A stretch of DNA of 64,000 nucleotides from an uncultured Bacilli bacterium (GTDB lineage Bacteria > Bacillota_I > Bacilli_A > RF39 > UBA660): assembly GCA_947585595.1 (NCBI GenBank), contig CANPXB010000001.1:1-64000 (forward strand), written 5' to 3'. The position numbers and the translations under genes were made by a program. This document shows positions 51,656 through 57,083 of the stretch, piece by piece (the first letter of the stretch is position 1; each line of letters opens with the position of its first letter). The notes beneath the pieces were generated by a model. That model was given only the letters and a program-made list of their open reading frames with translations, made no database searches and had not been told where the DNA came from.

Positions 51656-52831
51656 ATGAGTACAATTGTAATGAATACAAAAGATGAAGTAATCATGAAG
51701 TTAGTCCATTATTTTATCACCGAGGGAAATTATAATCCTATCGTTGTTAATGGTGTTAAAGATGAAATATGGTTAGAAAATACTGATGGACCTTATCGTA
51801 TCGTTCGTATCAATTCTAATAATATTTTTAATAAAGAACAACTTGAATATGACAATTATAAAATTGAAAGTATTGTCCGTCAGATTAAGAAGAAAACCTT
51901 ATCATTTAATGTTAATACTTTAAATATTTTATTAGATGTTAATGAAGATTTAAAACTAGAAGAAACTAAGAATATTAAACCTGTTTCTTTAGTTGGTAGT
52001 GATTTAAATATTACAAATGAAGGTATTTTAGAAGCTTTTCCTAATATTAATGAAAAACTTTTAAAAGATACAAATGGAGTTGAATTAATTTTGAATGTTA
52101 CAAAGGATATAAATCAAAAAACGGAAAAAGATAATATGTTATATGAAAGAACTTTCCGTCCTAAAAAAATTGTTGTTACTTATCTCTTAATCCTTGCTTG
52201 TGTTATTATGTTTGGTCTTACTTGTTTAAAAGGTGGTCAAGCATTTATTGCTGGTGATGATAACCATTATGTTGCTAATATCTTAGGTCAGATGGGTGGC
52301 GATAATGTTCGATTAGTTCAAAGTGGTGAAATATGGCGTTTATTTACTTCCATGTTCTTACATGCTTCAATAATCCACTTATTAGTTAATATGTATTCTC
52401 TAAATGTCTTAGGTCGTCAAATTGAAACCTTCCTTGGTAAAACTAAACTAATTATTATTTACTTAGTAAGTGGTCTATGTGGTAGTTTATTATCTGTTGC
52501 CACTATGGATACTAATATTATTGCTGTTGGTGCTTCAGGTGCTATCTTTGGTTTAGCTGGAGCTTTACTATATTTTGGTTATCACTATCGTACTTACTTA
52601 GGAGATGCCTTAAAAAGACAAATAATACCCGTTATTGTTATTAACTTAATAATAGGTAGTATGATTAGTGGTGTAGATAACTTCTGTCATATAGGTGGCT
52701 TAGTCGGTGGTATCCTAATAACGATGGCCTTAGGTATTGATGGTCGATCTAAAACCTATGAAAAAGTAAATGGCGTTATATGTTTACTTATCTTCGTTGC
52801 CATTCTTATTTACGCAATATTCTTTAAATAA
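51656..52831 (+). CDS. Rhomboid family intramembrane serine protease (GluP-like)
   Basis: GEIWRLFTSMFLHASIIHLLVNMYSLNVLG, VGASGAIFGLAGALL, HIGGLVGG. Confidence 0.95.
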   Translation: MSTIVMNTKDEVIMKLVHYFITEGNYNPIVVNGVKDEIWLENTDGPYRIVRINSNNIFNKEQLEYDNYKIESIVRQIKKKTLSFNVNTLNILLDVNEDLKLEETKNIKPVSLVGSDLNITNEGILEAFPNINEKLLKDTNGVELILNVTKDINQKTEKDNMLYERTFRPKKIVVTYLLILACVIMFGLTCLKGGQAFIAGDDNHYVANILGQMGGDNVRLVQSGEIWRLFTSMFLHASIIHLLVNMYSLNVLGRQIETFLGKTKLIIIYLVSGLCGSLLSVATMDTNIIAVGASGAIFGLAGALLYFGYHYRTYLGDALKRQIIPVIVINLIIGSMISGVDNFCHIGGLVGGILITMALGIDGRSKTYEKVNGVICLLIFVAILIYAIFFK

Positions 52832-52868: not shown

Positions 52869-53489
52869 TTAAATATTACGATATAAACCGATAGCTTTAC
52901 CTAAGATTGTACAACTATCTAAAATAATAGGGCTCATTGTATCATTTTCTGGTTGTAATCTAATATGATCTTTCTCTTTATAAAAAGTCTTTAATGTTAC
53001 TTCACCATCTGATGTCATAGCTACAACTATCTCCCCATTACGAGCAACACCTTGTCTTTGGACAATGATAATATCCCCATCATAAATACCTTTATTAATC
53101 ATTGATTCACCATTAGCTTCTAAAGTAAAAATCGTTTCTTTAGGAGGAATTAAATTAGCTGGTAGGGTAAACCATTCATCAGGGTTTTCAATAGCTTCAA
53201 TTGGATTACCACAAGCTACTTTACCAAGTAAAGGTACTTTAACTAAATCTTCATTCTTCTTTGCGTATTCATTCTCCCCAACAATTTCAATTGTTCTAAA
53301 TTTCGAATTAGCTTTACGAATACATCCCGCATCTTCTAACTTCTTTAAATGTGAGTGAACAGTCGCAGGAGAAGATAAACCTAAAGCCGCTCCAATCTCT
53401 CTCGTTGAAGGTGGATATCCATGATCAACAACGTATTTCTTTATATAGTTAAGAACATCTTCTTGTCTTTTAGTAATATTCTTTTCCAT
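52869..53489 (-). CDS. lexA: LexA repressor
   Basis: ITKRQEDVLNYIKKYVVDHGYPPSTREIGAALGLSSPATVHSHLKKLEDAG; ESMINKGIYDGDIIIVQRQ; TLKTFYKE; GGAGG SD. Confidence 0.97.
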   Translation of the reverse strand: MEKNITKRQEDVLNYIKKYVVDHGYPPSTREIGAALGLSSPATVHSHLKKLEDAGCIRKANSKFRTIEIVGENEYAKKNEDLVKVPLLGKVACGNPIEAIENPDEWFTLPANLIPPKETIFTLEANGESMINKGIYDGDIIIVQRQGVARNGEIVVAMTSDGEVTLKTFYKEKDHIRLQPENDTMSPIILDSCTILGKAIGLYRNI

Positions 53490-53533
53490 ATTCAACCTCC
53501 AATAACATCATAACATAACCAAGCAGAGAAGTC

Positions 53534-53653
53534 AAACAAATGTTTATTTTTCAACTTTTTTCCATCATAAAAACGACTTGTCAAATAAAAATGTCAAAAT
53601 ACAAACAAATGTTTTAAATATCTATTGACACAAACAAGCGTATGTAATATGAT
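53534..53653. promoter_or_regulatory. Divergent lexA / small-ORF control region with three LexA-box-like dyads
   Basis: AAACAAATGTTT at 53534 and 53603, AAACAAGCGTAT at 53632; + promoter TTGACA 53625 N17 TATGAT 53648; - strand TTGACT N17 TATGAT for lexA. Confidence 0.7.
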
Positions 53654-53678
53654 AAAGATGGTAAAAGGAGTGAGGAAA

Positions 53679-53819
53679 ATGAAAAATAGTGAAACAATTA
53701 AGAATGTGGCAGGAGTTATAGTTCTATACTTAATCATCATTCTTGGTGTTATTGCTGTTGATGCTCGAATGGAGGTTATTAATAGCAGAACAACCAATGT
53801 TGCTTCATTAGGAAATTAA
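53679..53819 (+). CDS. 46-aa single-TM protein divergent from lexA, candidate SOS-induced YneA-position protein
   Basis: MKNSETIKNVAGVIVLYLIIILGVIAVDARMEVINSRTTNVASLGN; AAAAGGAGTG SD; promoter and downstream terminator. Confidence 0.75.
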   Translation: MKNSETIKNVAGVIVLYLIIILGVIAVDARMEVINSRTTNVASLGN

Positions 53820-53842
53820 TATCAGGTATCTGATATTTTTTC
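53820..53842 (+). terminator. Intrinsic terminator
   Basis: TATCAG-gtat-CTGATA-TTTTTT. Confidence 0.75.
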
Positions 53843-55100: not shown

Positions 55101-57083
55101 ATGAACCCTGATTCAACTCATTCATTAAATAGCTTAAGAATCCTAAGTATCGATATGATATCCTATGCCAAAAGCGGTCACCCTGGTATTTGTCTAGGTG
55201 CTGCACCGATTATTTTCTCAGCCTATGTCGATAATTTAAATATTCATCCTGGAGATCCTAAATGGCCGAATCGTGATCGCTTTGTTATGAGTGCTGGCCA
55301 TGGATCTGCTTTATTATATGCCATGCTTTTTATGGCTGGTTATGATATTTCAATTGATGACTTAGTTGATTTCCGTAAAATAGATTCTAAAACGCCAGGT
55401 CATCCAGAATATGGTATAACACCTGGGGTTGAAACTTCAACTGGTCCATTAGGACAAGGCTTTGCTAATGCCGTAGGTATGGCCATTGCTGAAAAATATC
55501 TTCAAACTTTACTTGAAGAAGAAATTCCTAAACAAAAGCTAATTAATTACTATGTCTATGCTTTAGTAGGTGATGGTGATTTAATGGAAGGTGTTGCTAA
55601 TGAAGCTGCTTCCTTAGCTGGAACTTTAGGTCTAGATAACTTAATTGTCCTATACGATTCTAATGATATTACTTTAGATGGTGAGTTAAAAAAAGCTAAT
55701 ACTGAAAATATTATTCAAAAATTCATCACGCTTGGTTGGGAAGTCGACTTTGTTCCTGAAGGTAATGATGTTCGTGAAATAGATAAAGCTATTACTCGTG
55801 CTAAAGTAAATAAAAAACCAACCTTAATTGAAATTAAAACAGTTATTGGTCGTGGATCTTACTATGAAGGTAAAAACCTAGTTCATGGTAAACCTTTAAA
55901 TAAAGATGATATGATTAATATTCGTAAAAAATATAATATTTCAACTAATACTATGGAAATAACTGAAAATGCCGTTAAATATGTTCGTGAATCAATTAAA
56001 GCTCGTACAGAACTTAATTATAAAAATTGGCAAAGTTATTTTACTAGTATCAAAAATAGTAACCCTAATGAAAACTTAAAAAAATTACTTGATTTCATCG
56101 AAACCGGTGAAGTTAATATTCCATTTAGTAGTAGTAACTTTAAAATTCAAAATAACTATAGTGAAGAATTACGTGAATCTAACTCTAAAATGATGAATAT
56201 AATTAGTGACCGTAATAAATTATTCTTAGGTGGTAGTGCTGACTTAGCTACATCTTGTCATACTGGTCTTTTAAAAGAAGTAGATTTCAGTAAAAAAGAT
56301 AATATGGGCCGTAACATTAACTTTGGTGTTCGTGAACATGCTATGGGAGCTATCTTAAATGGTCTTGCTTTATCTGGTTTCCGTGTCTTTGGTTCAACTT
56401 TCTTAGTTTTCTCTGATTACTTAAAACCAGCTCTTCGTATGAGTGCTTTAATGAATCTTCCTGTTACCTATATCTTTACTCATGACTCTGTAACAATCGG
56501 TCAAGACGGTCCAACTCATGAACCAATTGAACAACTAGCTATGTTAAGAACAACTCCTAACTTAACAGTCTTCCGTCCTGCGGATATCAATGAAGTTATT
56601 GGTTGTTGGGATTATATCTTAGAAAATAAAAAACCAGTTGCTTTAGTTCTCTCTAAAGAAGAAGCCCATATCCTAGATGGTACAGATGGTGAATCAGTAA
56701 AAAAAGGTGCTTACATAATTCGTAAAGAAACCCAAAGACTAGATGCTGTCTTAGTTAGTACGGGTATTGATTTAACAACCACATACTTAATATCTGAAGA
56801 ACTAAGAAGTAAAGGTATCGATACCCGTTTAGTATCGATGCCATCAGTTGACTTATTCTTAAACCAAAGTAAAGAATATCAAAATTCCATAATTCCTCCA
56901 AATGCTAAAGTCTTTACTGTCGAAGCTAGTTCAACCTTACCTTGGTATCGTTTTGCATCTCCTGATTGTGCTATTGGTATTGATACCTTTGGTTATAGTG
57001 GAAAAAAAGACGATGTCTTAAAGAAAGTCGGATTCGATTACGTTACCATCCTTCATAAAATAGAAGAAAATATTAAAAATTAA
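55101..57083 (+). CDS. tkt: Transketolase
   Basis: AKSGHPGICLGAAPI, HGSALLYAMLF, GDGDLMEGVANEAASLAG, NFGVREHAMGAILNGLAL, TFLVFSDYLKPALRMSALM. Confidence 0.97.
   Translation: MNPDSTHSLNSLRILSIDMISYAKSGHPGICLGAAPIIFSAYVDNLNIHPGDPKWPNRDRFVMSAGHGSALLYAMLFMAGYDISIDDLVDFRKIDSKTPGHPEYGITPGVETSTGPLGQGFANAVGMAIAEKYLQTLLEEEIPKQKLINYYVYALVGDGDLMEGVANEAASLAGTLGLDNLIVLYDSNDITLDGELKKANTENIIQKFITLGWEVDFVPEGNDVREIDKAITRAKVNKKPTLIEIKTVIGRGSYYEGKNLVHGKPLNKDDMINIRKKYNISTNTMEITENAVKYVRESIKARTELNYKNWQSYFTSIKNSNPNENLKKLLDFIETGEVNIPFSSSNFKIQNNYSEELRESNSKMMNIISDRNKLFLGGSADLATSCHTGLLKEVDFSKKDNMGRNINFGVREHAMGAILNGLALSGFRVFGSTFLVFSDYLKPALRMSALMNLPVTYIFTHDSVTIGQDGPTHEPIEQLAMLRTTPNLTVFRPADINEVIGCWDYILENKKPVALVLSKEEAHILDGTDGESVKKGAYIIRKETQRLDAVLVSTGIDLTTTYLISEELRSKGIDTRLVSMPSVDLFLNQSKEYQNSIIPPNAKVFTVEASSTLPWYRFASPDCAIGIDTFGYSGKKDDVLKKVGFDYVTILHKIEENIKN

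Follow-up and report, generated by a model that had tools for sequence, protein, structure and literature searches.

A Conserved Micro-Protein Gene Divergent from lexA in Uncultured Gut Bacilli: A Probable SOS-Induced Division Inhibitor

A 46-aa membrane micro-protein is encoded divergently from lexA in the window (the whole 64,000-nt stretch of DNA analysed here, from an uncultured Bacilli bacterium). As judged from conservation and codon statistics, this open reading frame (ORF) is a real, translated gene under purifying selection, and its transcription is very likely controlled by LexA. The product is probably an SOS-induced single-pass membrane protein that delays division during DNA repair. 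The functional class is already known (YneA, SosA, ChiZ, DivS, and SidA); by sequence, the micro-protein appears to form a separate, smaller family, and no paper describing this family was found in a literature search.

The Micro-Protein Gene and Its Family

The gene extends from ATG to stop at positions 53679–53819 of the plus strand, and its translation is MKNSETIKNVAGVIVLYLIIILGVIAVDARMEVINSRTTNVASLGN. A Shine-Dalgarno (SD) sequence, AAAAGGAG, lies 8 nt 5′ of the ATG (53663–53670, plus strand), and a hairpin followed by a T run (53818–53837, plus strand) is the probable intrinsic terminator. This A/T-rich hairpin of 8 bp has a folding energy of −6.9 kcal/mol (z −3.9) and was not called by a strict scan for G+C-rich terminators. 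An earlier reading made from the sequence only had proposed this divergent ORF with a strong SD and its own terminator, all of which were recovered here; it had also named absence from relatives as evidence against its proposal, whereas the gene is kept at 127 of 164 non-redundant lexA loci.

The family was surveyed at lexA, a gene detected in 180 of the 195 genomes searched within the same bacterial family. Upstream regions came from a lexA search (30 loci), from coordinates (100), and from named records (up to 80), and a strict scan required an ATG, an SD-like motif, a length of 28–75 aa, and one hydrophobic stretch. Before full de-duplication, when some genomes were still included twice from two collections, such an ORF was present at 153 of 197 lexA loci (median 47 aa), whereas dinucleotide shuffles gave 0.8 on average and never more than 2. 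De-duplication by shared 30-mers left the 164 non-redundant loci, and the 127 divergent single-TM (transmembrane) ORFs among them encode 127 different proteins, mostly of 42–52 aa. Two further members (L105 and L204) were missed solely through the scan rules. Codon comparison of 32 independent pairs gave a pN/pS of 0.36 and a dN/dS of about 0.25; pN was the lower of the two in 32/32.

The shortness of the ORF, and its automatic listing inside a 64-aa frame that opens with TTG, would suit a chance ORF lying across the lexA regulatory region. That explanation is extremely improbable and is ruled out by conservation and codon statistics: the gene is considered real because of the census against shuffles and the excess of pS in every pair, and start, SD, and length are also conserved. 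A known RNA element was rejected as well, since an Rfam scan was empty. The 46-aa protein has no match in Pfam and only weak spurious matches in NCBIfam.

The named relatives are uncultured gut Bacilli, including Candidatus Coprovivens, which carry labels such as Tenericutes, Erysipelotrichaceae, and Mycoplasma; we take this group to be the order RF39 of GTDB. When 395 genomes of the class were searched with a profile, convincing matches came from this one family only, the others being marginal. Roughly one in five lexA loci has no micro-protein gene at lexA. The micro-protein is thus not indispensable, a point that counts against a role in division inhibition. At these loci, a transketolase, a polA-, mutS-, or miaB-like gene, or another ORF directly follows lexA (all except transketolase were read by eye from the sequence).

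Two other proteins were observed near lexA. An unknown protein of 260–290 aa is often found there at loci without the micro-protein (L095/L228, L124, L155, L158, L242, L252, and L288); it starts about 115–175 bp from lexA, and several of these loci show a pair of LexA-like boxes at a spacing of 17 bp. In another family of the class (f11), L294, L296, and L297 carry an unrelated TM ORF that diverges from lexA and is accompanied by three LexA-like boxes, and a small conserved DUF896/YnzC-like ORF lies downstream in the f11 loci. The TM ORF of L296 has 57 aa and begins MFNKICLTIYSYRCLIGIYFFGIGLL. This f11 ORF is a second LysM-free candidate for the yneA slot.

Promoters and LexA Boxes

The micro-protein promoter, TTGACA-N17-TATGAT (53625–53653, plus strand), scores 11/12, with the −35 element TTGACA at 53625–53630, a spacer of 17 nt, and the −10 element TATGAT at 53648–53653. 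Its spacer contains the LexA box AAACAAGCGTAT (53632–53643, plus strand), which differs from RAACNNNNGTTY by one mismatch. Two boxes are exact and read AAACAAATGTTT. One lies 5′ of this promoter (53603–53614), and the other (53534–53545) overlaps the −35 element of the lexA promoter, TTGACT-N17-TATGAT (53507–53535, minus strand; TTGACT at 53535–53530), which suggests autoregulation of lexA. The dyad in the spacer and the two exact copies, one over the lexA −35, had been pointed out in the sequence-only reading.

The exact 12-mer AAACAAATGTTT has only four copies in the whole 1.55-Mb genome, two of them in the lexA/micro-protein region. The looser AAAC-N4-GTTT pattern is not rare by itself, with 5 occurrences in the window and 2.5 expected, so that the weight of the argument rests on conservation and on the recA and recX boxes. 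The micro-protein promoter may be summarized as TTGACA-RAACNNNNGTTY-TATAAT, with the LexA box within the spacer; the family consensus is TATTGACAC-GAACAAATGTTC-GTgaTAaaAT, in which the box fills the spacer. A spacer box with at most one mismatch is present at 112 of the 127 non-redundant loci, versus 1/127 in shuffled sequence. The lexA promoter has the family consensus RAACATTTGTTTGACATTT, and the box therefore overlaps the lexA −35. Among the census loci, the commonest arrangement is a pair of boxes 28–29 bp apart.

This genome has the same palindrome in front of recA, at a distance of 76 bp, and in front of recX, at 56 bp. Furthermore, a second micro-protein copy in a related genome (L068, G047:C86), located away from lexA and beside an MGDG-synthase-like ORF, retains TTGACG-CGAACAAATGTATGGTG-TATGAT with the box in its spacer. 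The family-wide spacer box, the recA and recX boxes, and the L068 promoter together make LexA control of the micro-protein gene very likely.

Elsewhere in the same genome, a LexA-like box, GAACAGATGTTT, lies 51 bp before a gene for a 343-aa secreted or membrane protein (L174:1557-2588). This protein has no match in Pfam and is possibly the product of a further SOS gene.

Genomic Neighbourhood

The lexA gene occupies 52869–53489 of the minus strand with an ATG start (a TTG at 53495 is also possible), and its product matches the Pfam families LexA_DNA_bind (2e-21) and Peptidase_S24 (1.9e-31). On the far side of the micro-protein gene, transketolase (tkt, identified by Pfam; 55101–57083, plus strand) serves as a synteny marker. 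The gene order in B. subtilis is lexA-yneA-yneB-ynzC-tkt, and the slot between lexA and tkt agrees with the yneA position, the one that the sequence-only reading had assigned to the ORF. In 54 micro-protein loci, counted before full de-duplication, tkt lies within 0.7–2 kb. A gene for a rhomboid intramembrane protease converges on lexA (51656–52831 of the window); such a gene is also near lexA in 29/107 related loci.

An MGDG-synthase-like gene is located 3′ of the micro-protein gene in the window and in a minority of relatives. This arrangement is compatible with an SOS-induced membrane adaptor acting on another target, such as a protease, a transporter, MGDG-linked lipid synthesis, or phage exclusion, and the phage-borne homologues described below would also fit superinfection exclusion. 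Such an adaptor is nevertheless unlikely, as the gene downstream differs between genera whereas lexA is the fixed neighbour, and the terminator-like hairpin separates the micro-protein gene from the downstream gene.

Protein Anatomy

One TM segment is predicted by hydropathy, and there is no LysM domain, the 46-aa protein being too short and without a Pfam match; the protein thus has the single TM and short LysM-free tail that had been described. The N-terminal flank is basic (mean charge +1.8) and the tail neutral to acidic (−0.3), with N exceeding C in 116 of 148 members, and an N-in/C-out topology is therefore predicted. AF2 models residues 3–44 as a single continuous helix (mean pLDDT 83), with good confidence over the TM and the following patch and weak confidence in the tail. 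The patch, which has the conserved form R-x3-L-N/E, begins right at the TM end and comprises, in order, R (58%), one hydrophobic position, two variable positions, L (59%), and N/E/D (87%). Many members end in aliphatic-x-x-N, the conserved C-terminal motif being [IV][AVS][ILMY]N. No significant conserved helical face was found in the TM (P 0.57), which speaks against the division-inhibitor interpretation.

The main rival to that interpretation is a membrane-active peptide of the TisB/DinQ type, which would be induced in the SOS response, lower the membrane potential, and cause dormancy. Such peptides are known in E. coli (DinQ, PMC3567139; TisB, PMC11575346), and they resemble the micro-protein in being small, with one TM, and under LexA control. 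However, TisB and DinQ are type I toxins with RNA antitoxins in a different genomic setting, and the search for an antisense RNA antitoxin, which consisted of the Rfam scan, found none here. The micro-protein gene is divergent from lexA and close to tkt, as are those of Gram-positive division inhibitors, and the polar patch after the TM and the C-terminal motif suggest a specific protein partner. A peptide of this type is accordingly regarded as improbable.

Phage and Prophage Relatives

A family member in a prophage-like region of another genome (L058, G035:C29; profile E 3.8e-12 and 5.2e-14) has as neighbours an HTH protein and an ORF that looks like a helicase of the DnaB type; lexA of the same genome has no micro-protein neighbour. 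Three viral contigs (L306, L307, and L308) encode proteins of 52–55 aa with a TM followed by NARFEYLN, those of L307 and L308 being identical. This core is common to the prophage-region and viral-contig homologues, which occur in early/replication gene sets. The homologue at L308:3980-4138 is flanked by a BetR-type regulator on one side and SSB/replisome-organiser genes on the other, and that at L306:282-449 has its own promoter-like sequence and no LexA box. A further viral match (L309) was rejected because it falls inside a long capsid-like ORF. Annotated phage records gave no match to the family, and promoter-shaped LexA sites in viral contigs had a family-like ORF downstream in 0/7 cases.

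The TM and the patch persist in the phage copies, but the host tail does not, an indication that TM and patch together form the effector. These relatives, which the sequence-only reading had not noted, suggest that phages turn this helix against the cell cycle of their host. A more specific reading is tentative and, taken as a whole, rather doubtful: the TM helix with its NxRFxYLN/RxxxLE patch might be the whole effector of a ~47-aa FtsW-type family of septation blockers lacking a peptidoglycan-binding domain, and phages might have captured this family to stop host division during replication, their versions keeping NARFEYLN and having lost the host tail and LexA box.

Comparison with Known SOS Membrane Proteins

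The closest analogue is Staphylococcus SosA, which the sequence-only reading did not mention. In S. aureus, SosA is a proven division inhibitor of 77 aa without LysM, encoded divergently from lexA; it needs residues just beyond the membrane, and removal of its last 10 aa raises activity and accumulation (PMC6851548). Both proteins are LexA-controlled (very likely so for the micro-protein) and divergent from lexA; they have one TM, an extracellular C-terminus (predicted here), and a long-helix model, lack LysM, and carry conserved residues immediately beyond the membrane. On the other hand, SosA is longer (77 vs 42–52 aa), its essential DH at 44/45 is farther from the membrane, and its turnover involves CtpA, whose family (Peptidase_S41) was not found in the present genome (96% completeness). 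The two are compared by description, and no sequence relation is claimed.

YneA of Bacillus and Listeria, with a LysM-type form in Paenibacillus (L258), shares the chromosomal slot, LexA control, the N-terminal TM, and nearby tkt. In B. subtilis, the TM of YneA binds TM7 of FtsW, and LysM is essential, the protein being inactive without it; AlphaFold 3 models also put SosA, ChiZ, and SidA on FtsW, not at high confidence (PMC13396833). The absence of LysM from the micro-protein therefore argues against division inhibition, as does the fact that no homology to YneA was detected in sequence: a BLASTP comparison with one YneA of Paenibacillus, which itself matches Pfam LysM, gave no match at E ≤ 100, and no in-frame LysM-like GDTLW was found in the family loci. 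Derivation from a YneA that lost LysM was also considered, the C-terminal IVMN resembling the LysM start "VIVMNGDTLW" of L258; four loose positions with no intermediate are suggestive only, and this idea was set aside.

SidA of Caulobacter, a small bitopic protein induced in the SOS response, acts on FtsW, as is proposed for the micro-protein; it is proteobacterial and, as far as known, unrelated in sequence. The sidA gene is not known to be divergent from lexA. DivS and ChiZ of Actinobacteria are DNA-damage-induced single-TM division inhibitors encoded next to lexA; they belong to another phylum and are much larger, ChiZ having LysM. The earlier proposal of a minimal SOS inhibitor analogous to YneA or SidA thus holds in part. 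A conserved LysM-free single-TM gene in the yneA slot with likely LexA control stands; the protein is not a minimal YneA by sequence, as no alignment with a LysM-type YneA was found, and SosA is the closer analogue.

Proposed Function and Mechanism

From position, anatomy, and the analogy with SosA, division inhibition is the probable function of the micro-protein. A block of septal peptidoglycan synthesis in the SOS response is proposed on the basis of the SosA-like layout in 46 aa, the SEDS genes, and a DdcP-like protease. Three SEDS genes (FtsW/RodA family) are present in the genome, so the proposed target is available; the septal synthase FtsW is probably this target, a point held less firmly than division inhibition itself.

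Briefly, in the undamaged cell, LexA bound to the spacer box and the upstream boxes would block both the micro-protein gene and lexA. After damage, RecA would trigger LexA self-cleavage and the micro-protein promoter would open. The 46-aa product would be inserted N-in/C-out. The TM helix, together with the conserved R-x-x-x-L-N/E patch that lies at the outer face of the membrane, may then bind the septal peptidoglycan synthase and bring septum synthesis to a halt, in line with the proposal for SosA. Once LexA is restored, this short gene would be switched off and a membrane protease would remove the protein. Because CtpA was not found, a PDZ+Lon_C protein of the same genome that resembles DdcP is proposed as a possible candidate for this step.

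Implications

If the proposed function is correct, the micro-protein, which annotation is likely to overlook because of its size, would supply the missing DNA-damage checkpoint protein for a large group of gut bacteria, nearly all of them uncultured. A form of ~47 aa that is conserved without LysM would also show what a minimal inhibitor requires, and would offer a small natural template for studying how FtsW is blocked.
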